This document shows positions 7,880 to 45,675 of a stretch of 64,000 bases of DNA, one piece after another. The position numbers and the translations under genes are program-made. The notes under the pieces were generated by a model, which saw nothing but the letters and a program-made list of their open reading frames with translations, did no database searches and was not told the origin of the DNA. This DNA is from Pezicula radicicola (Eukaryota; Ascomycota; Leotiomycetes; Helotiales; Dermateaceae): NCBI GenBank assembly GCA_003008705.1, contig PDUO01000001.1, positions 1,543,694 to 1,607,693 on the forward strand, given 5' to 3'. The stretch's first letter is position 1, and every line of letters begins with the position of its first letter.

Positions 7880-10800
7880 TCAAGCAAAGACCCTCTTTGC
7901 AGTAGACCACAAGCTCTTGAGAGGGCCCTTATCCTTGACGACCTTATCCTTGATGACCTTGTCCTTGGATGAGTGTCTATGAGAATGAGAGTGTGACCTC
8001 CCACCTTCCCTTGACTCAGATCTCTCCTCAGCTTCACGCCGCCTTCTCCGTTCCTCTCGCCGGATCCTCCTGTCTTCATCATCCTTCTCTCTTTGACGTC
8101 TCGAGGCCTCAGCAACTTCGTCACGGGCAATCTGCATCTTCTTGTCAGTGTCCCTTCTCGAACGTCTTGCTTCCTTGTCGGCTTTCTCGCGTTCAGCACG
8201 CGCCTTTTCCTTCCTTTCGGCCTCCTTCCTCTCAGCCTCCTTCTCTTTCTCCCGCCTTTGAGAAGATGAGGAGGAATGGTGAGAGTGAGTTTTCTTCCGC
8301 TCGTCAAGATACTTGGGCCTCTCCCCATCCATCGAGAATCTCGGACGGTCGATTATTTTCACCGTATGGACTTCTTGTGTTCTCTCATGCACGTGTGACT
8401 CTGCGGTAGCGATAAATGGCATCCTGTGAACACTTTCTCCCTTCAAGGCCAACAATCCTGGTCGGGGTTCTTTGATTTCATCCTTGCTCCCGCCAGAAGT
8501 GACAGATCTTGCAGTGCTGGTTCTCCTTGAGGATCTAGTTTGGGGCACGGGTGGCGCTGTAGAATTGGCGGGCTCATCTACTACGGCACTTCCGGCCTCC
8601 GCAACAGCTCTGGCTTTGGCTGCTTTGTATTCAGCTTTACGTTTGTCATGTGCAATTTGCTCCTCGGGTGTCCGCTGTTTTCTGCCGTGAGATGTACCGG
8701 TACTACCGATACTCATCCCGCTGTCATGTCTACTTGGCTTTTGAGACTTTGGCGATGGCTGTGAGCTGTCACGGCTCTTACGATGGGATCTTGAGTGATG
8801 AGAATCATCGGCCACATCCTTAGTTGAGCTGCTGTCTTTGCTTGACCGAGTGGAATGTCTGGACGATCTATGCTTTGCCGAAGGTCGCTTGTCGGATTTC
8901 GGAGATGGAGGTAAGGTATCAAGTACTGCGGGTTCCTCTGGAACTTCAGCAAGTTGCTCTGGCTCCTCCACGATATCTTTGTCGACAACCGCTTCTGTTT
9001 CAGCGGGTTTGTCATCTGTCAACTCGTCAACTATTGCGCCTGCTGCCAGTGTTCCAGCGACAACTGCGGCCGCTGGTAAAAGATCATCAGCAATTGTTGT
9101 TTCTTTAGGTTCGTCACCAGTAGACTCGGTAGCTTGCTCTTCTGGAGCTGGATCAGCTTCAATCGGGAGAGTTTCTTGGATCCCCTTTGCTTCCTCAATC
9201 GGAGGCTGAGGGTCATCTGGAATGGCCTCTTCGCTATTTGAATTTTCAGGTTCCTGAGTAACCTCTTCTTTCGAAGCTTCTTCTAAGAGCTGAGGGTTAT
9301 CTGGAATAGCCTCTTCGATGTTTGAATTTTCAGGTTCCTGAGTAATCTCTTCTTTTAAAGCTTCTTCTGAGAGCTGAGGGCTATCTAGAATGGCCTCTTC
9401 GCTGTTTGAATTTTCAGGTTCCTGGGCAATCTCTTCTTTCGAAGCTTCTTCTGAGAGTTGAGGGTTATCTGGAATAGCCTCTTCGCTATTTGAATTTTCA
9501 GATTCCTGGGCAACCTCTTCTTTCGAAGCTTCTTCAGGCTCGATTTTCTTCTCAACAATAGGAGCTGCTTCTTCTGAGGGTTGAGGGTTATCTGGAATGG
9601 CCTCTTCGCTGTTTGAATTTTCAGATTCCTGGGCAACCTCTTCTGTCGAAGCTTCTTCAGGCTCGATTTTCTTCTCAACAATAGGATCTGCTTCTTCTGA
9701 GGGTTGAGGGTTATCTGGAATGGCCTCTTCGCTGTTTGAATTTTCAGATTCCTGGGCAACCTCTTCTGTCGAAGCTTCTTCAGGCTCGATTTTCTTCTCA
9801 ACAATAGGATCTGCTTCTTCTGAGGGTTGAGGGTTATCTGGAATGGCCTCTTCGCTGTTTGAATTTTCAGGTTCCTGGGCAACCTCTTCTTTCAAAATTT
9901 CTGCAGGCTCGATTTCTTTTTCTTGAATCTCATCGACCGCGGACTCTGGAGGAGGCTCTGCATTTTCCGTATAAGCCGGCGGAGGCCCCTTTTCATCTTC
10001 AGGCTGAGCTAGGGCCTCGTGCACAGTCTCAAGCGATTTATCGGTTTCTTGCGTCGCTAGAATGGCCTCCGCGTTGGCGGACTCTGTTGCGGCGTTCTGT
10101 TCAACCTCTTTGATCACCTCAGGACTTTCCGTGCTAGGCTCCTCTATTGGCCGTTGATCCGGATCCCCCGCAACTACATCGTTTTCAAGGACGGCTGGGG
10201 TGTCTTCCTGGGGATCAGATTTTGGAATTTCTTTAGTGGCGTGCTCAGGCTCCGAAGCTTTGTCCAAATCAGGCGCCTGTTCAGCCTCATCACTTGGAAG
10301 CTGGATTGAGTCTGTCGCAACTGGTTCATCAACGACCACCTGGCTTTCCGGCTCGATTCCAAGCTCGATTCCCTTGCTCTCCTCCTGGTTAGTTGATCCG
10401 ATCTTCTCGGCTTGCTCAGGTACCTCGCCATTGACTCCTGGGTCTAAAGCAGCGGGAGTCTCGTCAACGATGGGTTGCTCTGAAATTCCCTCTTCAATTG
10501 CAGGTTCTGCCTCGACTGGCTCACTTTTTTGTATGGCTGGGATATCAGCTTCTTCAATCACACTCTCATTTTCGACGATTGGCTCGCTTCCTTCAGTTGA
10601 GGTTGGCCCTGGTTCGTCTAAATTATTGTCTGAAGAGGGCTCGGCTTCAAGCCCAGTTTCTTTGTTTTCACCCTCCTCAACTGTATTTGAAGCTGCCTCT
10701 TCGACTAGAACTTCTTTCTCAAGAATCAATCCTGGCTCTTCCGAAATCTCTCCGATCTCCTTTACTTCTTCAGTCGGAGGCTGGGAGCCATCATCAATGG

Positions 10801-13150
10801 GCTGTTCCAGAATGATCTCATTAGTCGAATTGTCAGGCTCTTGGGAAATTTCTTCTTTCAAAGCTACTTCTGACTCAATTTGCTTCTCATCAATGACGAG
10901 TTCTGGCTCCACTAAATCGGCTTCGATCTCCTGGGCTTGCTCGCTTGGCATATCTTGTGTGACTGTCTCGTCAGTGATTTGTGGTTCTGGCTCTTCTGTA
11001 CTCGACTGCTGATTTGATGGTTGAGTTGATTCTTCCTCCATCTCGGCCAGGATCTCGGGCTTGCATTGACTTTGCTCAATAACTTCGTCGGTGACTTGTT
11101 TGTTCGAGGCAGGTAACTCTTCAATCACACCCTCATCTTCGATCATTGGCTCGATTGACTTGTCTTGAACATCTTGAATCTCCTCTTGCTGCTCGACTAG
11201 CTTGTCTTGTACATCTTCAACCTCCACTTGCTGCTCGACTGGCTTGTCTTGTACATCTTGAAACTCTTGCTCTTCGATCGGCTTGTCTTGTATGTCCTGG
11301 GCTGACTCCTGCTGTTCGATTGATTTATCGTGTATGACTTGAACCTCTTGCTCTTCGATCGGTTTATCTTGAGCATTTTGAAGCTCCTCGTGCGCCTTCG
11401 GTTCCTCCTGTATGTCTTGTATTAGCTCCTGTTCTAAAAATAGTTCTTGTTCTTGGGTTCGCTTGTCTCGTACCTCTCGAACTTCGACATGTGTGTCCTG
11501 GACTACTTCTTGCCTTTCAATTGGGCCCTGTCCCTGCTCTTGTATTGGCTCGTCCTGTACGTCATGGGTCTGAATCGAGCTTCCTTGAATCTCCTCTTGC
11601 TCTTCAATCGGATCGTCTTGGATATCTTCGGTCTGGATGGGCGGTGCTTCCTGTCTCTCAATTTGCCCACCTCCGCCCTCTTCTTGCATTTGAACTTTCG
11701 CTCCTTGCACTAGTTCTTGCTCTTCATCCGGCTCGTCTTGGTCCTTTTGGATTTGCGTGTCCTTTTCACAACTGTCGGGCTCAGCGTTATTCTCTAGGGC
11801 AGGGCTCTCATCAATTGCGGGCTCAGCGCTATTCTCCAGGGCAGGGCTCTCATCAATTGCGGGCTCAGCGNNNNNNNNNNNNNNNNNNNNNNNNNNNNNN
11901 NNNNNNNNNNNNNNNNNNNNNNNNNNNNNNNNNNNNNNNNNNNNNNNNNNNNNNNNNNNNNNNNNNNNNNNNNNNNNNNNNNNNNNNNNNNNNNNNNNNN
12001 NNNNNNNNNNNNNNNNNNNNNNNNNCGTTATTCTCCAGGGCAGGGCTCTTATCAATTGCGGGCTCAGTGCTATTCTCCAGGGCAGGGCTCTCATCAATTG
12101 CGGGCTCAGCGTTATTCTCCGGGGCAGGACTCTCCTCACTTGCGGGCTCAGTATTGTTTTCGGCCGGGGCGTCGGCCTCAGCTTCAACTTGAGTCTCATC
12201 ACTTGCAGGTTCGGCGTTATTCTCTTCGGCCTCCTTGACTTTCTCGGCGTCTGTGGGAGCGCTTTCGAGAGTATCTGATGGAGCTTCAGTCTCTTTAACT
12301 TCGTCGACGTCTGTAGCAGCGCTATCAGGGGGATTTGATGGAGTTTCTTCGTTTGGCGTTTCGTCTTGTACCGGCGGTGGAGTAATTTCGGGCTCTGGTG
12401 ATGTCATGGCGGCTTTGCTCTTCTTATCTTTGCCCTTGGACTTCTTCTTGTTGTTGGATGACTTCGGCAATTTTTCGTGTTTGGGAGGTGGCGGGGACAC
12501 TGGCTCTTCTTCTAGTGTATCATTTTTTGAGGAGTTCTTGTTGCTTTTTCCTCCTTTCTTCCCACCCTTCTTAGCTTTGACCTTTTTCCCAGATTTGGTG
12601 GGATCAGGCCACTCGTCATCAGGAACCTCAGTTGGCGGCTGCTCTCCATCACCATTTGACGCTTCGTGTTCCGGTGGTGGTTGTTCGCCTGCGTCATCTT
12701 GCTCAGCGGGAACATCTTCTATAACGTCGTCTGTTTTTGACGGCGTGTCCATGTTCTCCGGAACATCCTCACCTGTCTCGACGTCTCCGGCGTCTGGATG
12801 GCTCTCTTCCATATCAGGGATATCTTCTTTCGTGCCATCTTCATCACCTACTCAGGTTAGTCCAATTTCAAACAACACAGTTGAATAACGTACCATTTTC
12901 AGAGTCTACAAATCCATCGACAGGAGACTTGCATGCTTCTAAAAGCGGCAAGTCTCTTGAATCGCCCGAGAATGTCACGGGTTGAGCTAGTTGTGTGGTC
13001 TGGATAGTCGACCAATCAGATTGGGCAATGTTGACCCGATGAGGGCAGAAGGAAATGTTCATGATGGATTGATGGATTGTCTTTCTTTACCTCGTCTGCA
13101 GGAAGGTCGGTCGGGATGTCTTGGGTCGAGCTCTTATTCTCGTCGCTCAT
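7880..13150 (-). CDS. Giant Glu-rich low-complexity repeat protein (interrupted by assembly gap)
   Basis: Exons 13150-13091, 12999-12894 and 12847-7880; the last contains a run of N at 11871-12025. The product is about 1.7 kilo-residues excluding the unknown gap length. It starts MSDENKSSTQDIP, passes through a Lys-rich block (KKGGKKGGKSNKNSSK), then a 14-residue tandem repeat (AEPAIDESPALENN type) on both sides of the gap, then long Glu/Gln/Pro stretches with QDKPIEEQ-like repeats (11146-11350) and 41- and 28-residue repeats (9235-9900). A short Ala/Val-rich hydrophobic patch (near 9010-9080) precedes a Ser/Arg-rich region, an extreme Arg/Glu/Lys coiled-coil-like segment and a basic C-terminus ending SLWSTAKRVFA. 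No enzymatic domain is visible; it is probably a disordered scaffold. The second exon boundary is inferred from phase and could differ. Confidence 0.75.
9235..9900 (-). repeat. In-frame tandem repeats, 123-bp and 84-bp units
   Basis: Within the Glu-rich gene, the word around gctgtttgaa recurs at 9608 and 9731, exactly 123 bp apart (41 codons). Several further copies lack 13 codons, giving an 84-bp (28-codon) version. Units encode the pattern ENSNSEEAIPDNPQ...EE. Copies are nearly identical in DNA, suggesting recent expansion or homogenisation. Confidence 0.85.
11771..12150 (-). repeat. 42-bp tandem repeat spanning the N gap
   Basis: A 14-codon unit (AEPAIDESPALENN/S) repeats on both sides of the N run at 11871-12025. 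The two flanking reading frames differ by one, so the placeholder of 155 N does not reflect the true length. The gap is most simply a collapsed or unassembled repeat array. Confidence 0.85.
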
Positions 13151-31079: not shown

Positions 31080-32337
31080 TTAAAGCCTAGCAACATTAAC
31101 CCTCTCCCCCCTCTCATCAAACCTAACAACCTCACCACTCAAAAGCGCATCCTGCAAAGCCCTCCCAATCCTCATAACCAAAATCCCCGTCTCAATATCC
31201 AACGGAACATCCGTACCCTTCAAACAAGCCTCAACAAACAAATTAGCCTCAAGTGCAAAAGCATCTTCAAACCTCTGCCAATACTCAGGTTGAACCTGAT
31301 GACTCAAACCCAATTTATCAGCCAAGACAACATTATTAGCCCTCGGAACAACATTAACCATGATTTTTCCATCCGTACCAGTAACCTCAGTACAAACATC
31401 ATGACCATGAGCCTGAGTACGAGAACAATAAAAATACCCAATCTTACCACCCCAAAACTCAACAACTCCAACTGCGTTATCTACATCCTGTAATTCTTTA
31501 AGTTCGGGATGATGTTGTAGTGTACCAACTGCCCAACAAGCTTTCGGAATCGGATTTCCTAGGTACCATAATGATAAATCTATATCATGAATAGCACAAT
31601 CTACAAAGATACCTCCGTTTCGTGCTGCGTAGCGTACGAAGAAGCCGGTATCATCTAGGAGATCGCAGGTATTGGAACGGACCATGAATGGCGTTCCAAT
31701 TGCTTTGTCGTTGAAGATTTTGGTACTTGCGTCTCGGTAGGAGGCATCGAAGCGGCGAGAGAACCCTGCCATTACTTTTAGATGGGGGTTGGATTTTGCT
31801 GCGGTTACTACTGCCTGCGCCTACACATTTAAAAATATCAGTATAATTATTGACCTAGGCATGAGATGTAGGAAAATAGGAATAAGATGTTCGGAAAAGT
31901 GGAAGGAAAGAGAAATCAAAACAAACCTCTTCCAAATTATTCCCCAAAGGCTTCTCACATAGAACATGCAGTCCCTTCCCAATAGCCATCAAAGTCTGAC
32001 TAGCATGGACATCCGTACTCGAAGAAACCCAAACAGCCTGTAACCCAGTATGTGCCAACATATCCTCATATTTATCGTAAGTAACAACACCGAATTCTTT
32101 GTATTCTTCATTATTCTTGGCCCATTCCACCTCGAGAGGATCGGAACTGCAGACTGCTACTACTTGTACGCGGGGCACTCGGTATATCAAGGTTTTAACA
32201 TGTCGTTTTCCCTTCATGAATGTTAGAATATTGTAATGCTTTTTTGGGGGTGGGGATGGGATTGATGGGATGGGCGGTTTTAGATAGATACGTACCATGC
32301 GGCCCAGTCCAACAACTGCAATTTGAAGACGATCCAT
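31080..32337 (-). CDS. Gfo/Idh/MocA family NAD(P)-dependent dehydrogenase (copy 1; inositol 2-dehydrogenase-like)
   Basis: Exons 32337-32296, 32211-31927 and 31820-31080, all phase 0, encode 355 residues. The first exon ends inside the dinucleotide-binding motif GLGRM|G (residues 10-15). The EKP motif with the presumed catalytic Lys is at residues 100-102. The C-terminal half carries AGFSRRFDASYR, GGIFVDCAIHDIDLSLWYLG (the conserved D-x-x-x-H block) and TGTDGKIMVNV, all normal for the inositol/scyllo-inositol dehydrogenase branch. It should oxidise a cyclic polyol or aldose with NAD(P)+. It shares a 574-bp promoter with the divergent sugar transporter, and a paralogue lies at 37737. Substrate is not determinable from sequence alone. 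Confidence 0.92.
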
Positions 32338-32911
32338 TGTACCTGATTTTCTGATTCTTGAATGAAAAAGGATGAAATGTAATGTGAGATCACAGTTAAG
32401 AGAGAAATACTATAATACTTACTGATTGCAGGCGAGACAACAGGACTTTTATAGACGAAGAAAATCAGACTCAAGAGACAAATGTTCTTCATCAATAGTA
32501 GTATAGAACAAACAACTTCCAATTCAAGTAAGAGGCGGCGGCTCTTGCCTATTGCAGTAGCAGATTAACGAATCCGAAGCCGAGATAGAAAGACGGGGTA
32601 CCCCCCTGATGTCTCCTCCCTTCCCCGCAAATTCAGCAGGAGAAAATCGCCGAATTTACCCAAAGGAGGAAATAAAACTAGGGGGCATGAATAGACAAGG
32701 GTACTATGTACATCAGCCAAGTTCCCAATTTCTTGTGGGGAGACTCTCCCCGTGGGGTTACCCGTCCTTTTCGTCTAGGTAAGAAAAGTACTTCAAAACG
32801 GCATTGAATACATATTGCACAGACAATGCCGGCCCTCTTCATATACAAGATTATTCTACTCTTTCCATCTCGAGTTTTTGGAATCTGAATACACCTACTA
32901 CTTCCTCAGTC
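32338..32911. promoter_or_regulatory. Shared divergent promoter, dehydrogenase 1 / sugar transporter
   Basis: 574 bp. It holds two GTGGGG words (32735-32740 and 32752-32757) matching the CreA/Mig1 carbon-repression consensus SYGGRG. Between them is a perfect palindrome GGGGAGA-C-TCTCCCC at 32737-32751. STRE-like AGGGG (near 32680) and CCCCT (near 32605) words are also present. Function is inferred from consensus only. Confidence 0.55.
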
Positions 32912-34604
32912 ATGTCTGATATCAAGACCCTCTCGTCTAAACATCATGAAGAGGCCAGCGTCGTCAAAACTGGAGACATAAGCGACATATTGGGAGAAAT
33001 CGAACCATATGGGCCAAATGGAGTCCGAGGGATCTTGACTTCACCATATGTTTTTGGTGCTGCTTGTCTCGCTTCCTTGGGTGGATTTTCCTTCGGCTAC
33101 GACCAAGGAGTCATTTCCATTATCAACGTTATGGATCAGTTTCATGCGGTGTTCCCACAGGCCAAAACTGCATTCGGGACGGGCTTCATGACGGGTATGT
33201 TATTGCTTGGTGCCTTTGTGGGATGTATTTTCATGCCATATTTGGCTGATAAGATATCTCGTAAGAGAGCATTGACGGTCGTGGTTGTTATATTCAATAT
33301 TGGCGCCATCATTCAGACTTGCGCCCAGAACTATGGCATGTTGGTCGCTGGACGGGCTATTGGTGGTGTTGGAGTCGGTACACTTGCAATGGTATGTAGA
33401 TACGAGTCTATCTACCATTAGGCGACGATGAGTCAATGACGACGGCTAACCAAGTATCGCGTAGGGAGCGCCACTTTATATTTCAGAGATAGCTCCACCT
33501 AACCTCCGAGGGACCCTCCTGGTTCTTGAATCGATCTCTATCGTATCTGGAGTCTGTATCGCTTACTGGCTTACTTTCGCCACAAGATTCATGGACGGCG
33601 AAAGTTCATTCCGACTTCCACTAGGCCTTCAAATGGTTTGCGCAACATTTCTAGGCGTTTTCATCCATGTCTTTCCATACTCGCCGCGGTGGCTCACCTT
33701 GGTCAACAGACAGGAAGAATGCCTTGCTAGTCTTGTCAAGTTAAGGGGCCTGCCACCCACAGACGCAAGAGTGCAGACCGAATACAAGAGTATCATAGCC
33801 GAAGTCGAGTTCCAGAAGGCAGTACAAGAAAGAAGACATCCGGGTGTCCAGGGAATCAAGCTCGAGATCCTCTTATGGCTTGATCTCTTTGATCGAAAGA
33901 TGTGGCGTCGAACTGCTGTGGGATGCGGTGTTTGTTTCTTCCAGCAGTTTTCGGGAATCAATGCCTTCATTTATTACGCACCGACACTATTCCGGTCTAT
34001 CGGCCAGTCGGATGAAATGTCCTTGGTACTATCAGGGATCTTCAACCTTCTTCAGCTTGTCGCTGTCGTGGTCTGCTTTATAGTCATTGACAAAGTAGGA
34101 CGGAGGCCTCTGGCCATATTTGGAGGCTTTGGAAGCGCCATTGCGTATATCATCATTGCCGTCCTCGCCGGAATCTATTCTAAAGACTGGGCTGCCAATC
34201 CAGCTGCCGGATGGGCCTGTGTCGCCATGGCATTCGTCTTTATCCTTGTTTATGGCGTCTCATATTCGCCCTTGGGCTGGGCTCTCCCTCCTGAGGTTTT
34301 CTCCAATGCTTCCCGATCCAAGGGTGTCGCTCTCGCTACATGTCTTAACTGGTTATCCAATTTTATTGTCGGCGTTGCTACACCTCCTATGCTTGCTGAC
34401 ATTGGCTTCGGTACCTATGTATTTTTTGCGGTTATGTGTGGACTGTCCGGCATATGGGCAACACTCCTTGTTCCCGAGACTAAAGGCCGGACATTGGAGC
34501 AGATGGATGACGTTTTTGGGGACACTAGTGGACAGGAAGAAAGAGAGATCATGAGGCTGGCTGCTCTTCAAGCCCAGAGGATAGTTGTTGAAGGGAGAGC
34601 TTAA
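32912..34604 (+). CDS. MFS sugar/polyol transporter
   Basis: Exons 32912-33391 and 33465-34604 give 539 residues; the 73-bp intron falls exactly after GTLAM. The start MSDIKTLSSKH is preferred over an in-frame ATG 36 codons upstream because sugar porters have a short cytosolic N-terminus. Sugar-porter signatures are clear: FGYDQGVIS after TM1, RKRALT with GRAIGGVGVGTLAMGAPLY then SEIAPPNLRG, FFQQFSGINAFIYYAPTLF in TM7, DKVGRRPL, and PETKGRTLEQMDDVFG at the end. Twelve membrane spans are expected in the plasma membrane. It probably carries a monosaccharide or inositol by proton symport. Divergent from dehydrogenase 1, which supports a joint role in uptake and oxidation of the same compound. 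Confidence 0.92.
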
Positions 34605-35093
34605 GGGCGATCACTGGTGACTTTCATATTCTCATGTATAGCTATAGTCTGTATAATGATCTATACAAGTTAAATACGAAATCCATGTTGGGAGTGCTCT
34701 TTCAAAGTCCATTGATCAAAACTTAACTGAAAACATGTATGTTATCTATATGATCGCGGGAGAATATTCCCAACACCGGTTGAGTCAACGTACTTGATTG
34801 CTGGAGGAAATTGTATACTTCAGAAAATTAAAAAGAGGTTGCTTCCAAGTATCAACAAACCGGGCTCAAATATCTATCAATTGTGTGGCCAATGGACATC
34901 CATTCATTCCACTAATTTTAATTTAAAAACCACATGAACGTGGTTTCCCGTCACGATAATGCTAAGATGAGCGATGAAACTCAGTTTAGCCTATGGCGCT
35001 GTACTAGACGCGTAGACCACGCTTCCAGGTTGACTACCTAATCGTGTCTTCTAAAATTCGTCTTTTGGATAGCTAGAGCCTAAAGCAATTTAA
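34605..35093. other. Convergent 3' region
   Basis: 489 bp between the stops of the transporter (+) and the Zn2Cys6 gene (-). No gene seen; expected to hold both terminators. Confidence 0.5.
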
Positions 35094-37258
35094 CTATTTG
35101 AACGAACGCAACTCTTTTGGCAACGGCCACGCGCGGACATTCTTAAATTTATCAACTACGCTCGCCAACGCCTTACGATCCCATTGGTCTGTAAAAAAGT
35201 CACCATAAAGCAGGATGCCGACTATAGCGTTGACGAGAGCAGGCGGTAATCGGGGATGATGAAGAGCAATACCACAAAGATCGAGAACAATCAAACGAAC
35301 CTCGCTCTCTACCTTTCGGTTAGCGGCACGGTCGATTGGTTGGGCTCTGCCATCTACCATGAGCGTTTATGTAGTACTCTAGCAATGAAGGAGACATACT
35401 TAAGTAGTGGGGATTCAGCCATGAGTACCATTTTAGCAATCATCAGATGTTGGATGCCACAAACTACAAGCTCCGACCCATACCATATTGTGGGGAAGAC
35501 CTCTCCTTTCGACTTGTCAGGTAGCTGCCTGAAAACTGGCGCCCACTGACCCGAGACCTGCTCGTCAAGGAGGCCTTCTTGCTCTTTGAGTCTCCCTAGT
35601 TTTCAAGAATCAGGATTCCATTTCCTCACAGCTTCAGTCCATCAACTTACTCCACTCGTGTTCCGACTTGTCATCCCAAAGCCATTTCGCAACCTGAGCC
35701 GCGTGCATTACCATCTTGTTCGCTGTGTTTGTTTCTAACCATACTGCAGGAGAAAGAAGCATCTGGATCGAATGTTTCCTCGTAAAAGCATAATATACCT
35801 CCTGCCTCAGACCCATCCAATACGCGGCATTGAATAAACCTTGCCGGTGAAAGAGGCTATCCAAGTGCGAGCATCGCACCACTGCATTTTCGACGGCGAG
35901 GAAATTCACCAGTTGGTGAGTACAGCCATCCCGGTTATTCCCATCAACACTTGTGGAGTAATGTGTCTCATCTTCCTCTTCCTCCATCTCCATCTCCTCA
36001 AACTGTCGGAGGATCACTGCTGTAGCAATAATGTGCTCCCGGCGCTCTTCATCTTGAATCTCGTGGAATTCCCGAAGTGCAGGAATGCATGTGAGCATAT
36101 ATTCCACGGCAGAGTTAGGTGTAATGTTTGTAAGGAGTTGGCCATGGTAAAGAATCCCCTGGGAGGTTCTGTACTGTGGGAGACGGCTAAGATGACGGGC
36201 GGAGACGGCAAGGATGGCATTGAGGAGTGGCTTGTAACGTCGGGCATACATAGGAACCAAAAGTTGGAAGTGCTTACGTTCATCGCAAGTATCAAACTTT
36301 AACAAAGTCAGCGTCAGGCTTTCCGTTCAGGAATTGATAGCTCACCCAAATCGAGAGCTCCTCGACAAAATATCTTACAAGACAAGCCTCTTGAATATCC
36401 TCTAATGGTTGATAGTGAGCAATAGCTGCAGAGCCATGCACCAAAAAGTGTTTTGTCTGAGTAGAGCCCTGCTGGAATATCTCATGAACATGGTTTGGAA
36501 AGTCTTGCTGGGTGTTGATTTGGGGGGGAGGTTGCTGCAGGTTGACAGTACTAGGTGAAAAGTAGGGAGTAGAATTTCTGTCAACTGTCGTCGACACCAA
36601 AGAGGCTGTGCTATGTGGAGAATGGTGCGAGAAGGCATTGTGCTGTGAGAATCCACCATCACTTGCTCCTGCAGGGCTCGCTTGATCAATATCAGCCCTA
36701 ACTGTTGCTAGCTCGGCTGAAGGACTCGCCAGAGGGGAGACCAAAGATGGTCGTCTCCTTAAGAGATTCGTGTCGGCATTTTGGGCATGGCGTCGCAATG
36801 GTCCAGCTCCGGAGGTATGGTGACGGACTTTTGGTACAGGTGATTTAGTTCAAGGGATTCTCATGGGGGGTTCTCATGGATCTCGTGGATGACAGCTTAC
36901 ATTTCCTTGCACTACTATTCACCCAATTTTGGTTGCCTGAAAACTGGGTATCGTACTTAGCCGACGAGCCTGGCCGAAATGAGGTGGTCCTGGTCAAACG
37001 AAGACATTCCAGTCCCTTTGCCAGACAGCGGTGGCACTGTGGTCCATCTTGGTCGCCTAATCAGGCAAATTGACAGATTCATTAACTGGTTGTCAAGACA
37101 TCCGCCAGATTTGCTTACACTTGACATGTTTTTCTGCGAATTGGGATGAGTACGATTACGAAGTTGAATACGGGGTAAAACGGGGAGTAGAGTGCGGGGC
37201 AAATAGGGTGAACGATACCTTTACAGTTCAAGCACGGATACTTCTTCACCGATGGCAT
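35094..37258 (-). CDS. Zn2Cys6 (C6 zinc cluster) transcription factor with fungal_trans_2-like domain
   Basis: Seven exons: 37258-37219, 37133-37119, 37056-36901, 36827-36346, 36296-35651, 35595-35400 and 35346-35094, giving 595 residues with every phase consistent. The zinc cluster is C9-x2-C12-x6-C19-x6-C26-x2-C29-x6-C36, split by two introns; exon 2 is only 15 nt. After a Ser/Gln-rich linker comes the regulatory domain: YFVEELSIWFDTCDERKHF, PLLNAILAVSARHLSRLP, EIQDEERREHIIATAVILRQFEEM, FNAAYWMGLRQEVYYAF, SEVRLIVLDLCGIALHHP and LYGDFFTDQWDRKAL. This layout matches fungal regulators of the ARCA/fungal_trans_2 type. It is divergent from dehydrogenase 2 and next to the transporter, so it is the likely pathway-specific activator of this block (inference). 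Confidence 0.88.
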
Positions 37259-37736
37259 TTTCTACTGTACAAGACAATACAAGACAGTGTAACGGTGAGA
37301 CTGTGAAATCGTCCTCGCCGAGTCCAAGGTAGGATCGAAGAATTGAAACAATTCAAGCAGGTCTCGCCGGATGGCAGGAGAGCAATAACACTATGACACG
37401 CATTCCTAGGCCCGGCGGCGCTTACTTGTTCCAGTAATACAGAGCTTGGCATATATTGGGGCTCGTGTGCCTTGCAGTAGCTTGCCACCATGAGGCGAGG
37501 ATTCCTTAAAGAGGTAAACCGGAGATCTCTAGCTACAGTCTTCCTCTCACCGTTACTTGTATTCGGTATCCCGCTGCAGCTTGCCCCACGATGGGACACA
37601 GGTCCTCATCCCCATGCCCCCAAGAATCTGCACTGTTATCTATGTAGAAGTTGCTGCTAGAAATCAACTTGCAATCCAGTAACCCTCTTCCTTCAGCTGC
37701 CAAATCTGACTTCCTGTAAATCGTCAAGAAACAATA
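37259..37736. promoter_or_regulatory. Shared divergent promoter, Zn2Cys6 factor / dehydrogenase 2
   Basis: 478 bp. Contains an inverted triplet pair CGG-tatc-CCG at 37564-37573, the kind of site bound by zinc-cluster dimers, and several single CGG/CCG triplets (for example GCCGG near 37370 and CGGCGG near 37413). A direct autoregulatory site is possible but unproven. Confidence 0.5.
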
Positions 37737-39023
37737 ATGTCCGCTCCAAAACTTCGAGTGGCTGTCGCTGGTTTGGGCCGCATGGGTAGGCCATATACAT
37801 CCCCAGCTACACCTCGATTCATGTGGTTGCTTGCTTGCTATTCCAATTGCTAACTTAATTCTGCTCAGGCATGCGACATGCCCGGCATTTTGCAACCCTC
37901 ACTCCACAGGCCGACCTTATTGCTGTCAGTTCTCCTGTGCAGGCTGAGCTCGATGCAGCCCAGAATGAGTTCGCAAACGTGCGCACCTATCTTTCTTACG
38001 ACGCAATGCTAGCGGGAGAACCGGATTTGCAAGCTGTCATTGTTGCGAGCGCTACGACTGTGCATGCGGAACAGGCTATAAAGGCCATTGAGAAGGGTCT
38101 TCATGTTCTATGTGAGAAACCGCTGAGCACCAGTCCAGAGATCGTAAGTTCTATGTACCCAGACAGTCGTTCATGTGGTCAAGATATAATTTGGCTGACT
38201 GAGTTATCAGTCTCAAACTGTCGTTACGGCATACAAAAACTCCCTCAAGAAGCATCCAGCTCAGAAAGTCATCTGCGGCTTTTCCCGTAGATTCGATGCT
38301 TCCTACCGCGATGCACACAGAAGGCTCATGAACGGGGATATCGGTCGTCCTTCTGTCTTCCGTTCCCAGACATGCGACAAGCTTGACCCTTCTGGATTTT
38401 TCGTCGCCTATGCTGAGTTCAGTGGAGGTATCTTTGTTGATTGTTCCATCCATGATATCGATCTTGCCCTGTGGTTCTTCGGAGAAGATAGCATTGTGAA
38501 GAGTGTTTCTGCGGTCGGAATCACTGCAGTCCAGCCAGACCTTCGCAAACACAATGACAGGGACAATGCCGTAGCGGTCGTCGAATTTCATGTGAGTTCT
38601 TCCGAGTTAATGAGCACGAGCGTCTTGCTGATAATGATCCTTGCACAGGGTGGGAAAATAGCCCAACTCTACTGTTCTCGAATGATGGCAGCAGGCCAGG
38701 AGGACACTACTGAGATCTTCGGTACCGAAGGAAAGATTGCCGTAAACACACAGCCTCAGTTAAACTTGGTCAACCTTTACGAATCCACAGGAATCCGACG
38801 AGAAATACCACCTGACTACTACGGCCGATTCCGGGACGCATTCATTACGGAAGCGAACGAGTTCACAGCCTGTTGCTTGAATAACACGCCAGTGCCAATG
38901 AAGTTAGAGGGTGCTGTCAACGCTGTTAAGATTGGCTGCGCATTGCAGGAGAGCTTAATCACTGGCAAGAAGATTGAGTTCAATGAGCTAGGTAATCGAC
39001 TCGAGCCTCGTGCAATGTTGTAA
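37737..39023 (+). CDS. Gfo/Idh/MocA family NAD(P)-dependent dehydrogenase (copy 2)
   Basis: Exons 37737-37785, 37869-38143, 38211-38591 and 38649-39023 encode 359 residues. It has the Rossmann motif GLGRMG near residue 12, EKPLSTSPE at 99-107 (presumed catalytic Lys 100), CGFSRRFDASYRDAHRR, GGIFVDCSIHDIDLALWFFG and FGTEGKIAVNT. It is clearly a paralogue of copy 1: both have an intron at the GLGRM glycine and another just after the EKP segment, and both contain SRRFDASYRDA. The third intron is absent from copy 1. Expected cytosolic, oxidising a polyol or sugar. Two dehydrogenases in one block may catalyse successive or reverse redox steps (for example an epimerisation through a keto intermediate); this is inference. 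Confidence 0.92.
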
Positions 39024-39753: not shown

Positions 39754-41125
39754 TTAATGCCCTGGGGATACCGCCCTAGGCTTATAATACTCAATGCTAA
39801 ATATACCCAGTGTATCTATATGATCCTGGATTACCTTAAGCCGTTCTCTCATCCATCGAATAAGATCGTGGTCTTTCGTAGAACCATAATCACCCGTGCA
39901 CACAGCTGAGACCTTCAGATGGGAAACTTGAGCTGTGGTTCTACGGCATGATAACCCATGGTATGGCGGTGATGGTGGATTTGGCCAGAAACCACTCGCC
40001 ACTGCACTCCTTATCAAGGTGCCAAGTAACATGCCATCACAAATGAACTTTTGCGGATTTGAAGAACTTGAGCAGAGACTTTCGGTTTGTAAGAAGGTGA
40101 TTTGTTCAGTTACCACCGCAAGCGTCTCCGACAGTGCATCCGTCCGAGTGTTTTGAATGGTATCTAAGAGCACAACATTAACACCATTATTTGGAATCAG
40201 GTTTGTGGGAGAAATACCAATGACCAGGGCAGGAATCGGTAGATCAACTTTTCGGCCTTCAACCAGAACGCTAGTCTCCAGAGGGCCAGTGCTTTCTTGT
40301 ACAAGCTGGTCGGTCACAAGTTCGAATATCTCTGGAACTTCGAAAACCCAAGAAATAGCAAGCCACTCAATTAGATTGTCGTTTTCAAAATGAGGTGGGG
40401 ATTCGTCCTCTTGGTGCTTGATCCAAAGTCTTGCAAAAAATGCCGCGGCCTTTTTTATACGATATTTATCGCATAAAACACATATACTGACTAGTGTTTT
40501 GAAGCTGATAGTCTCTGGGATATCCTCGGTATTACCGTGAATAACTGGTTTAGATTGTGATTTTAGCTGTTCTTCTTAACAATATAAAGGATATCAAAAC
40601 TGAATATAGTTTTGGGAACTGTAGAGAATACTCCTATTGCAAAACATCGCCCAACTGCAATCATTCTAGGATAGGGAGGTTCTGGAGGAACGAACTCTGT
40701 AGCAACAGACTAAGCCCTGTAGGGTCGTCATCAGGAAGTGGAACCTCCGCACTGCCAGAAGAGGCAAGTTGACTTCCTTCCCTAAAGTGCCCACCCTGCA
40801 GCATCGCTTTGAAAACTGGCGATGCCAACATCATGTGCTTCGAGGATGCAACAATCTTTACGTTTGGTGATACTTCTGTTGTGTTGTTAAGGCCGGACCG
40901 TCTCCTCTTTGCCGGTATACGGCGCGATTTTTTATCAATGACATCGGGCCGGGTCAAGAGCAAGATCAGGTCTCCTACTCAGGACCACAGTGTTAGCTGT
41001 CTCTTCAATTCTTAAAAGTGAGAAGGTTTCATTGAGGAGTAGCAAGAGACGTCTTGCAGAGCTAGCTCGCGCAGTGGAGAAGTTCTGTGCTACGAACCAT
41101 CAGGGTCAAGCTCGATGGTCTCCAT
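39754..41125 (-). CDS. BTB/POZ domain protein, paralogue A
   Basis: Exons 41125-41098, 40974-40696, 40544-40218 and 40163-39754 give 347 residues. The start METIELDPDGDLILLL joins through a 123-bp intron and lines up with the DPNGDLVF start of paralogue B. BTB core: VASSKHMMLASPVFKAML, then VPLPDDDPTGLSLLLQIIHG, ISFKTLVSICVLCDKY and NLIEWLAISWVFEVPEIFE. The C-terminal half (FICDGMLLGTLIRSAVASGFWP) also matches B. The last intron (54 bp) is a multiple of three with no stop, and B has an intron at the same place, so splicing there is likely. Such fungal BTB proteins are common and mostly uncharacterised; BTB domains mediate dimerisation and often cullin-3 binding. Confidence 0.8.
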
Positions 41126-41862
41126 AATTGAATCGGTTTGTGGGATTTATTCTGCCGATATATGAATTAATCAGGACGAGCACAACGTATAGGCTTACCA
41201 AAATGTCAAGGTAAAGGGCCCAAACTCACTTGTTTTGTTAGTATAATAGGGTATAGTACTGTAGGTATTTCAGCAGGTTTCGAGAATTGCGGATGGAAAG
41301 AGGTTGCAACCGCTGACCTCATATGCGGAGCAAGGCTGGAATGGCTTCCCCCTGTCTGTCGATCAGGCCACCGGCTCGTAAATTAATTTAAAGAGCTTAA
41401 ATTTAGTGTCACCCAAGCCTTGGATGCCGTCAACTACTGTACCGACGTTACCTCGTTTGAGGACTTCGTACTGTAGAAAATAATGACCCCGAGTTGTCAC
41501 ATTCCTGCGCCAATATGAATCTATAAAAATAGGAAATGCCCTCCCTACGACTTGTTCATATTCTGCGAATCCCAAAAACAAAATCCTATATCATACAGTA
41601 CGATGTGGAATTGGTTTCAGCCTTGCCTGCACGGGCCCTATTTTCCGGGGTGTGGATGATGCTCCTCCGAAGCTGACAAGTCTCACGACCACTATCGAAA
41701 TTACGAAGTAAGCGACCTACGTGTCACTCACCTGGAGCATCTAACCGAAGGAACAATTGCCTTGTCAACTTATCTTCGACTCGCCCCGTAATAGAGGGTC
41801 ATTGGCGCTCAGAGGGCAAGACCGTGGATGGAACAAGACATACGTTACAGATAAACTAAATC
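41126..41862. promoter_or_regulatory. Shared divergent promoter of the BTB pair
   Basis: 737 bp between the two start codons. ORF 41363-41581 (-) has no recognisable domain. No further motif assigned. Confidence 0.4.
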
Positions 41863-43048
41863 ATGAAAACAGTCCATACCTTTGATCCCAATGGTGATCT
41901 AGTCTTCTCACTCCCAGAAGTATCCGAGACCAAGGCCGTGGAGGAGGAGACGCGAACCATCAGTTCCAGAAATAAATCGTCAAATGGAGCTGTGACGCCC
42001 AGTGAAGCATCTGAGGATGGCCAGTCAGAGATGAACCTAGAGCCTGCCTTGGACGTTCATATGGTCGTCTCATCAAAACATATGATGCTTGCTTCGCGCG
42101 TGTTCGCAGCTATGTTACAACACAGCAATTTTCAGGAAGGACAAACGCTGGCTTCTACTGGGCGAGTCGACATCCCATTGCCAGAGGACGACCCTGAATC
42201 ATTCATCATACTATTAAACATCATCCATGGCCGTAGTCGAAAAGCGCCTCGTACCGTGGACTTGGAACTTTTGACTAAACTTGCAATATCGGTAGACAAG
42301 TACGAGCTTCACGAAGTTGTTGAGGTCTATTCGTATTCATGGATCGATACTCTCCCCAAAACTTACACGGAAGAAAATGCCTTGCCTTGGCTTGCTATTA
42401 GCTGGGTGTTTGATCTGAAAGAAGAGTTCAGGGCTGTAACAAAAGTTATTGAGCGCTCGGCTTCTTCAGACCTGATGGACATCCTAGGAAACATCTCTCC
42501 CAATCTTCCGATTCCTGGTCGCATCATCGGTATGTATAAGTCTTAGGTATCAGTTAATAATTTAACTATTTAAGCTAACAGCTTCTGTAGAAGCGATCTT
42601 GACGCGGAGGCAGCAGGTGTTATTTTGCCTGTTCAACACCATAGAACTTCAAGCAAAGGTCTATCAGGGCTCCGTTCTCTGTGATCGAAAAGACGGCAAA
42701 GAGGACAGAAAACGCGCTTGCGATGCCATGGTATTAGGTTCACTCCTCAAAGGGGCTATGGAGAGCGGTCTCTGGCCAATTCAACCTCCACCTTATGCCG
42801 GCTTCAAAGTCAATAGCGTCATGTCAGCCGTACGCTGTCTAACCATCGTAGCTTTGTGCGATGAAATCGACAGGTGGTACGAGGCCAAAACAGCTCCGGC
42901 TTCGTATAGCAACCGGTACTCATATGGTACACCTACACATGTTCAAACACATGGCGTAAAGCAAGCAATTGAAGAGCACGTGGATTTACAGGAAGAAAGG
43001 TTGTGTGGCTTCGATATTGACGATTTCAAAGCAGAAAAGAAGTCTTAG
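41863..43048 (+). CDS. BTB/POZ domain protein, paralogue B
   Basis: Exons 41863-42529 and 42591-43048 (61-bp intron, GTATGT...TGTAG) encode 374 residues. N-terminus MKTVHTFDPNGDLVFSLP, then an acidic/Ser-rich insert. The BTB core begins at about residue 66 (HMVVSSKHMMLASRVFAAML) and continues with DIPLPEDDPESFIILLNIIHG, LLTKLAISVDKYELHEVVE and ALPWLAISWVFDLKEEF. The C-terminal half has QQVLFCLFNTIELQAK and CDAMVLGSLLKGAMESGLWP. It is more complete than paralogue A in the C-terminus. The head-to-head arrangement with A and the shared intron position point to an inverted tandem duplication. Function unknown; a substrate-adaptor or regulatory role is possible. Confidence 0.88.
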
Positions 43049-43578: not shown

Positions 43579-45675
43579 ATGGCGGTCGAATCTGTCAACA
43601 AAGTATCTACTGAAAATATTGAAGAGAAGACTTCACAACAGCATATAGAACACTCCGATGCAGCACGAGTATGTGGGACGTCTGGGGCTCCAGCAGCGGT
43701 TGAAGATTGGTCTGAAGAAAATCCCAAACTGAATAGACAGATAGTTTTAGCTTTCCTTGTGAGATCTACCTCCTAGTTTTACTATAAATCTTAACGCATT
43801 TATCGCTAACTCAAGTCGACAGGCTTTAACAATGCAATTTAATTCTTATATTCTCACGCTCCTAATTCCTTCCACAACTCTATCAACAATCAATGCCGAT
43901 CTTGGCCCTGATCCAAACTATACCTGGATCACCGTATCATGGACGCTTGCAGCATCCATTCTGGTCTCAGTCGGCGGAAGACTAAGCGATATCTTTGGAC
44001 GGAGATATTTCATGCTCTTTGGTGCCAGTGTTAGTCTAGTTGGATGCATTGTTGGGGCTACTGGACAGAGTATCAATCAAATGATCGCTAGTGGTGTCAT
44101 TCTTGGGACGGGTTCTGGATTCCAGGAGATGAGTTATGCTTGCATCCAGGAAATTGTGCCGAATAAGTGGAGAATCTACGCTATCGGTAGGCATACCATT
44201 TTGATTGTGCGTCTATTATCTAACACAGCTGCAGGCTTGTTTGATCTCATGGCCTCTATATCATTCCTTGGCCCTCTAGTTGCTTATGCGTTCATAGGAC
44301 GCACCTCAATTGGGTGGAGAGGAGCTTACATTTACATGACTACATTCCATGCCTGTGCACTCGCCCTTCTCTTTTGCGTATACTACCCACCAACTTTTGA
44401 GACCAAACACAAGTATGATGGGAAGACGAAGATCCAACTGCTTAAAGAACTCGATTACATGGGCCCTGTTCCTTTTCTCTGCTGGCTGCGTTTTATTCCT
44501 CTTAGGAGTCAACTGGGGAGGCCGTCAATATCCATGGAAGAGTGCGTATGTTATTGGCCCTATGGTCATTGGGATACTATGTCTTGTAGCTCTAGGATTC
44601 TGGGAGGTGTATGCTCCTTTGAAGAATCCACTGATGCCACCTCGGTTATTCAAGAAGTGGAGAAGGTAGGTTTCTACTTCTAAGTATCGTAGTTGATATG
44701 TGACTAACGCTCTAAAGGTTTACAATGGTTCTCGTCGTTTGTTTCGTGGGAGGAATGTTGTACTATGCAATGAATGTTCTCTGGCCACGTCAAAGTCAAC
44801 TACTTTTCACCGGCTCGGACCCGATTGTCAAAGGATTGTACTCGGAAATGATACCTCTCGGAACAATCAGTATGTTCACCAAAACACATATCGGCTATTT
44901 GTCCTGACAATATAGCAGTTTCTTCTTTTGTCGTCGTCTTCATCTGTGCCCGAGTTGGTCATGAACGCTGGCAACTCTTCGTCTTCATGATAATCGAGAC
45001 AGCCCTCGTAGGCTCCCTAGCATCCGTAGGATTGAATTCAAAGATCCAAGCAATCTGTACCATCATAGCCCTATCAAGCACAGTAACACCACCACAATTA
45101 CTCTCTTTCATCATGCTATCACTTGGTATCGACGATCAAACCGACATGTAAGTAAACCAATTCCTCACCTACAACCCTTCCAAAAACAGATAAAAGGAAG
45201 ATCCTAACTCACTCTCCACAGCGGCATAGCAGTCGGTTTAGCCGGAACATTCCGCCTCCTAGGAGGCTCAATAGCAACAGCAATCTACACGTCAATAATA
45301 AACAACAGTTTCAGCAGCACCCTCCCCACCCAAATAACCCACACCCTCCAAACCTCCAAACTCAATTTCCCCACAACGTCACTCTCACTACTTATCAAAG
45401 CAGCAACAACAAACACATTAGCAGCCTATGAATCAGTCCCCGGAATAAACACAGCAGTAATAGAAGCAACTAGTTTAGCAGTTAAGAAAGCATATGTGAT
45501 TGCTTTTAGAACTACTTATCTGGCAGCTATTGGATTCGGGGTTGCTGCTATTGTTGCTGCTTGGTTTACATGTGATATTGAGAGGGGGATGAAGAATGAT
45601 AATAGAGCTGTTAGGCTAGAGAATGAGAAGGGGAATGAGGGGGTGGGACTGAAGGTTGTAGATGGGGATGTTTAG
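43579..45675 (+). pseudogene. TRI12-type MFS efflux transporter, broken by a single-base insertion
   Basis: Exons 43579-43758, 43823-44186, 44235-44665, 44718-44869, 44916-45147 and 45222-45675. Family signs: WITVSWTLAASILVSVGGRLSDIFGRRY, SGVILGTGSGFQEMSY then CIQEIVPNKW, and later SFIMLSLGIDDQTDIGIAVGL. These match TRI12-like fungal drug:H+ antiporters (14 spans). In exon 3 the frame breaks at GGGCCC (44461-44466), between the ELDYM and LFLFSAGCVLF segments. Ignoring one base restores the phase of all later introns (about 603 residues). This is either a recent loss-of-function allele or an assembly error in this one place. The second intron (48 bp) is frame-neutral. Its role would have been export of toxic or secondary compounds, substrate unknown. 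Confidence 0.8.

Follow-up and report, generated by a model that had tools for sequence, protein, structure and literature searches.

The stretch of DNA analysed here (the window) comprises 64,000 nucleotides of the fungus Pezicula radicicola (contig PDUO01000001.1, positions 1,543,694 to 1,607,693 of the forward strand). Between 31 and 39 kb it holds four genes, which encode two proteins of the Gfo/Idh/MocA family resembling inositol dehydrogenases (IDH1 and IDH2), a sugar porter of the major facilitator superfamily (MFS) and a Zn2Cys6 regulator (Table 1); a Pfam scan of the window proteins recognised only these four genes in the cluster. Judging from protein similarity and gene neighbourhoods, the cluster is real and probably an inositol-directed catabolic module. 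The genes, their orientations and the two divergent spacers are as given in a first-pass annotation of this DNA, and the transporter and regulator genes converge, with 489 bp between them.

Table 1. Genes and divergent intergenic regions of the cluster, in window coordinates
Feature	Position	Strand	Details
IDH1, Gfo/Idh/MocA inositol-dehydrogenase-like, 355 amino acids	31080-32337	-	introns 32212-32295, 31821-31926; C-terminus ARL
Divergent intergenic region IDH1/transporter, 574 bp	32338-32911		
Sugar porter (MFS) transporter, 539 amino acids	32912-34604	+	intron 33392-33464
Zn2Cys6 regulator, about 595 amino acids	35094-37258	-	six predicted introns
Divergent intergenic region regulator/IDH2, 478 bp	37259-37736		
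IDH2, Gfo/Idh/MocA inositol-dehydrogenase-like, 359 amino acids	37737-39023	+	introns 37786-37868, 38144-38210, 38592-38648; C-terminus AML

The splice models were built by script, with all splice sites inferred from GT/AG boundaries, reading frame and homology; for the last two regulator introns, the ranges tried allow nine alternatives with an uninterrupted frame. IDH1 and IDH2 are 49% identical. They had been thought to share two intron positions, and this holds exactly for the second intron, which lies at the same aligned site and in phase 0 in IDH1, IDH2 and the genome's three other IDH paralogues. It fails for the first, which is in phase 0 in IDH1 and phase 1 in IDH2, an offset of one nucleotide, and which does not occur in the gene models of the three other paralogues. 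The third intron is private to IDH2.

Properties of the encoded proteins

Both dehydrogenases match the Gfo/Idh/MocA models PF01408 (84.9 bits for IDH1 and 80.5 bits for IDH2, cut-off 24) and PF22725 (70.9 and 87 bits, cut-off 27). The top NCBIfam model for both is TIGR04380, inositol 2-dehydrogenase, with 242.3 bits for IDH1 and 252.3 bits for IDH2. These scores are under the curated cut-off of 355, so we call the proteins IDH-like. Their closest solved structures are 3cea, 4mkx and 4n54, the last two aligned over nearly the full length. The alignment to 4n54, which is L. casei IDH2 with scyllo-inositol, scores 184.5 bits for IDH1 and 172.0 bits for IDH2, as compared to 55.0 and 73.5 bits for 4mio, which is L. 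casei IDH1 with myo-inositol (PMC9603128).

After restriction to a length of 330-400 amino acids, residues were counted in 77 of the best 120 IDH1 homologues (41 were too short and 2 too long) and in 115 of the best 120 IDH2 homologues (4 too short and 1 too long). The catalytic residues K101, D183 and H187 of IDH1 are kept in the same columns of IDH2. Lys, Asp and His are found there in 77, 76 and 76 of the 77 IDH1 homologues and in 114 of 115 IDH2 homologues each, the remainder being gaps. The two families differ at the substrate-contact column of motif V, which is His in 72 of 77 IDH1 homologues (Gln in 4, a gap in 1) and Gln in all 115 IDH2 homologues. The window proteins read HGH (IDH1) and AGQ (IDH2) at this motif, and neither matches the YGY of group i (myo/D-chiro). 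In characterised enzymes, Tyr at this position goes with myo/D-chiro activity, and His, Arg or Lys mostly with myo/scyllo activity, with exceptions possible (PMC9603128, section 7). IDH1, with its His, therefore looks like a myo/scyllo-type inositol dehydrogenase, and the Gln of IDH2 does not appear in the replacements listed by that section.

We also considered the cofactor. By the rule in section 7 of PMC9603128, Ser or Thr at the column of BsIolG position 35 would suggest NADP(H). The column that we assigned to it by eye never holds Asp or Glu, and in 75 of 77 IDH1 homologues and 114 of 115 IDH2 homologues the residue is Ser or Thr. Ser likewise occupies the corresponding site of the L. casei enzyme 4mkx, which we take to be NAD-dependent, and we therefore assign no cofactor to IDH1 and IDH2.

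A tree of homologues places IDH1 and IDH2 in different clades, each with full support. IDH1 clusters with sequences that we take to be from Sordariomycetes, Eurotiomycetes and Dothideomycetes, apart from the two presumed Leotiomycete IDH1 sequences of the tree. Horizontal transfer of IDH1 is not claimed: IDH1 is outside any starred clade, the tree was a quick one, and paralogy explains the placement equally well.

The transporter matches TIGR00879 with 356 bits (cut-off 237.8) and PF00083 (Sugar_tr) with 370 bits, which identifies it as an MFS sugar porter. No inositol transporter occurs by name among its 49 solved-structure matches (all listed) or among the best 60 of the 66 structure matches of a second transporter, found beside an IDH gene on contig C91 of the genome, and for this reason we assign no substrate to it.

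The regulator carries a zinc finger of the form C-x2-C-x6-C-x6-C-x2-C-x6-C, which is continuous once two predicted introns are taken out; with six spaced cysteines and a Zn_clus score of 33.2 bits (cut-off 21), it belongs to the fungal Zn2Cys6 class. Fungal_trans_2 (PF11951), a domain present in some homologues, scores 19.4 bits (E 5.3e-4), under the cut-off of 21. Homologues are similar to the middle and C-terminus of the protein, and some are named ARCA-like by their sources. Among candidate operators, CGG/CCG pairs at every spacing from 0 to 20 occurred in at most three of eight intergenic regions, and a best value of 3 or 4 arose in 168 of 200 shuffles. A 10-mer common to both window promoters, TTGCAGTAGC, would turn up by chance about 0.5 times and is not taken as evidence.

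Related loci in this genome and in other fungi

A genome search with IDH1 returned three further close IDH genes, on contigs C91, C63 and C94, which are 63, 71 and 66% identical to IDH2 and 49, 49 and 47% identical to IDH1. Each of these loci carries one close IDH. The search with the regulator returned at least 13 other loci, four of these by the zinc finger alone. Three of the other nine adjoin the IDH genes, at distances of about 0.7, 0.8 and 6 kb. A fourth stands about 1 kb away from MIOX, of which the genome has one near-full-length copy, on C25. Sugar transporters adjoin the C91, C94 and C25 loci (80 of 389 candidates were scored), and none was found at C63 by tblastn with the window transporter in 20 kb. 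Reading the regulator loci C61, C105 and C25:24k revealed no IDH; the loci on C119 and C143 are outside the neighbourhoods read. Random placement of the four genes within 10 kb of the nine loci has a probability of about 8e-11; this rough and naive estimate takes no account of gene clustering and was made once the pattern had already been noticed.

Regulator paralogues thus stand near three IDH genes and MIOX, which points to inositol. The earlier assignment of the cluster to a catabolic-type module of the inositol branch of Gfo/Idh/MocA enzymes gains support from IDH and regulator genes side by side at three other loci, with a transporter at two of them. The IDH on C63 clusters with sequences that we take to be from Leotiomycetes and is 91% identical to a Coleophoma protein; at C63:811975-821491, a P450-reductase-type gene and a P450-like fragment recognised by eye lie between IDH and regulator.

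Besides the gene on C25, the only MIOX match in the genome is on C122, where a short MIOX-like stretch (C122:22308-22505) contains five in-frame stops and is probably a gene relic. We also searched for the bacterial iol pathway, taken as IolE together with IolD, and did not find the pair in this genome. A profile search gave no match to IolE, which exceeds its cut-off in 2 of 14 control genomes. For IolD there were 10 matches, none over the cut-off and the best at 152 bits against 715; all 14 control genomes match, three of them over the cut-off. Introns reduce the sensitivity of both searches. The genome has seven AP_endonuc_2 matches, so an IolE-like enzyme so far unrecognised may exist. At C62:816428-820692, an AP_endonuc_2 protein lies with a sugar porter and with the Gfo/Idh/MocA protein that scores highest against PF01408 among the matches listed.

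For other fungi, linkage was scored as contig sharing among the organisms named in two hit lists, with metagenome rows left out and the same organism with an equally long contig taken as one contig. The lists hold the best 120 matches per protein (of 2175, 192 and 1878), and the counts that follow apply to the matches listed. IDH1 and regulator homologues lie on one contig in 9 of the 12 fungi compared, namely Neonectria punicea, Fusarium duplospermum, F. nematophilum, Mariannaea, Aaosphaeria, Aspergillus venezuelensis, A. multicolor, A. foveolatus and Colletotrichum sojae, and are not co-located in A. niger, Cosmosporella and Cylindrodendrum. Five of the nine contigs are 84-152 kb long, and the paired genes differ in locus-tag number by one in N. 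punicea (006855/006856), by 8 in F. duplospermum and by 10 in F. nematophilum. IDH2 and regulator share a contig in two of six fungi, Phlyctema and Xylariaceae FL0016, with misses in A. avenaceus, A. cristatus, A. flavus and Geosmithia; the Phlyctema linkage is weak because its contig measures 6.7 Mb. When IDH2 homologues of at least 80% identity alone are considered, the counts become 2 of 3 for linkage to the regulator and 0 of 1 for linkage to IDH1.

These results suggest that an IDH1-regulator core is conserved in other fungi. The core recurs in them, and the two-enzyme form was not seen elsewhere in the data compared. Of the four-gene linkage expected in relatives, the IDH1-regulator part is seen in the nine fungi above, IDH2 joins the regulator in the two cases above, and an obligate pair of dehydrogenases is not supported, since of the 8 other fungi with both IDH1 and IDH2 rows, 0 have the two on one contig. 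The last count is a weak test, because just one of the eight has an IDH2 of at least 80% identity (Penicillium brasilianum, 82%); the other seven, at 70-79%, may be other paralogues. In a quick tree of 41 regulators, the window protein falls in a supported group of 15 (SH-aLRT 96) with the IDH1-linked regulators of Aaosphaeria, F. duplospermum, F. nematophilum, N. punicea and Mariannaea and the IDH2-linked regulator of Phlyctema. The three Aspergillus regulators, that of C. sojae and that of FL0016 are outside this group and may be orthologues or paralogues.

Elsewhere in the window, two similar proteins in opposite orientation, BTB-like by eye, adjoin IDH2 at 39754-43048, with three open reading frames (ORFs) without a Pfam match. 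A TRI12/MFS efflux-type transporter extends over at least two separate ORFs at 43763-45675, and a reading frame of 1507 amino acids at 7880-12403 is rich in Glu/Pro repeats and includes one stretch that reads N.

A proposed route to MIOX and its alternatives

With middling confidence, we read the cluster as an inducible module whose target would be an inositol stereoisomer or close cyclitol, to be imported, interconverted and handed over to MIOX. The regulator would sense the compound or its product and switch on both divergent promoters, and the sugar porter would import the compound. IDH1 and IDH2, which differ at the substrate-contact position, could then convert one isomer to a keto-inositol and this to another isomer. 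Non-myo isomers would thereby become myo-inositol, and MIOX, encoded elsewhere in the genome, would open its ring to give D-glucuronate. The substrate, direction, induction and epimerisation step are what we infer here. With no IolE match and no IolD match over the cut-off, a keto-inositol has no detected bacterial-type exit, and MIOX is present; interconversion to myo-inositol for this enzyme would be the simplest use of two dehydrogenases that differ in stereo-preference. The first-pass annotation had called the module self-contained, which is unlikely because oxidation alone would yield keto-inositol and MIOX, the likely next enzyme, is on another contig.

Several observations weigh against the proposed route. 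The MIOX gene is not only on another contig but outside the window altogether, and both dehydrogenases score below the TIGR04380 cut-off. The window transporter is just 28% identical to the one adjoining IDH on C91, and the window regulator's group holds just 5 of the 9 IDH1-linked regulators. No operator was common to the promoters beyond shuffles, for CGG/CCG pairs in eight intergenic regions, and the two dehydrogenases were not found on one contig in the eight other fungi. A related Entamoeba IDH also accepts glucose and xylose (PMC8629394).

This breadth of substrates is what a rather doubtful alternative builds on, in which the module oxidises an aldose or another non-inositol (for instance glucose, xylose, an L-sugar or a sugar acid) through broad-specificity IDH-type enzymes whose inositol likeness reflects ancestry only. 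Relatives oxidise L-glucose (PMC5969746) or D-glucose and D-xylose (PMC8629394), and both the low TIGR04380 scores and the unlisted Gln of IDH2 fit such a role. However, it leaves aside that regulator paralogues adjoin the near-full-length MIOX gene and three other close IDH genes, and that the closest solved relatives are named inositol dehydrogenases. It is also conceivable, but unlikely, that two one-enzyme modules, regulator with IDH1 and regulator with IDH2, came together here and act on different substrates in no single pathway. The linkage counts (9/12, 2/6 and 0/8), the separate clades of IDH1 and IDH2 and the single close IDH at each other locus of this genome agree with such an origin. 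Yet one regulator and one transporter stand with both dehydrogenases inside 8 kb, each dehydrogenase divergent from one of them, and the linkage comparison covers the best 120 matches per protein, with seven of eight IDH2 rows perhaps being other paralogues. Specialised metabolism, in which the cluster would make or modify a cyclitol, is very improbable: the P450-reductase-type gene and the P450-like fragment at C63 speak for it, but the window cluster shows its four genes only, the interval from 31 to 39 kb gave no recognisable synthase, methyltransferase or P450, and a sugar porter is typical of uptake.

Beyond the route through MIOX, we considered a broader and rather improbable picture, in which ascomycetes hold a repeated, regulator-linked system for inositol isomers. 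Its IDH2-type enzymes would be peroxisomal and joined to MIOX through one regulator family, and a second enzyme of different tuning, IDH1 with its own type 1 peroxisomal targeting signal (PTS1), would have been added in this lineage to give a stereo-interconverting pair. If true, cyclitol oxidation would take place in peroxisomes. Taking C-terminal (S/A/C)(K/R/H)L as a strict PTS1, which is a predicted signal and no localisation test, we found it in 74 of 115 IDH2 homologues, 10 of 77 IDH1 homologues and 0 of 120 regulator homologues (of the best 120 listed each), and in 22 of the 27 nearest IDH2 homologues. A FastTree phylogeny of 195 rows, built with the last 25 residues removed, requires at least 17 changes of this trait on the IDH2 side and at least 11 on the IDH1 side, so the signal is frequently lost or gained. 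In the window, IDH1 fits the strict form and IDH2 does not. The latter counts against the peroxisomal idea, as do the other IDH paralogues of this genome, which end in AQL, AIL and AQL, and four relatives that we take to be Helotiales (P0351, P0352, P0353 and P0357), which end in AVL, ALL, AVM and ALL. Among the matches listed from the open-licence literature, no paper on a peroxisomal fungal IDH was recognisable.

Comparison with known systems

Plants and soil commonly contain inositols and products of phytate. The use of inositol isomers by filamentous fungi is sparsely described in the open-licence literature searched, where none of the papers listed was recognised as dealing with a gene cluster for inositol dehydrogenases in a fungus. 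If the proposed reading is right, it would offer a regulator family and a gene set to test, a role for the many fungal proteins annotated as myo-inositol 2-dehydrogenase, and the prediction that many of these are peroxisomal.

Among fungi, a Verticillium gene annotated as myo-inositol 2-dehydrogenase is raised in one isolate by infection and by extracts of potato (PMC8146963). That gene was studied singly, and the word "cluster", which the paper uses once, means a functional grouping of genes. The peroxisomal myo-inositol dehydrogenase of Entamoeba belongs to the IDH family and carries a C-terminal PTS1, to be compared with the ARL and AML ends of the window proteins; a fungal IDH is unmentioned wherever that paper brings up fungi (PMC8629394).

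Two inositol dehydrogenases of the IDH family in one organism are likewise known from L. casei, IDH1 (4mio) and IDH2 (4n54) (PMC9603128). In contrast to that pair, both fungal enzymes are nearer to 4n54, and the fungal genome gave neither IolE nor an IolD over the cut-off. The proposed interconversion has a bacterial counterpart of the IolW type, which runs through 2-keto-myo-inositol: IolW turns this ketone into scyllo-inositol by reduction (PMC9603128, section 7), and B. subtilis has been engineered for the conversion of myo- to scyllo-inositol (PMC3176187). The genes and regulators there are bacterial, whereas in this fungus the epimerisation is proposed from sequence. In Cryptococcus neoformans, MIOX permits the use of inositol as the sole carbon source (PMC2584100). 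A MIOX gene is present in Pezicula radicicola too, and the IDH genes would form a separate layer in this fungus.

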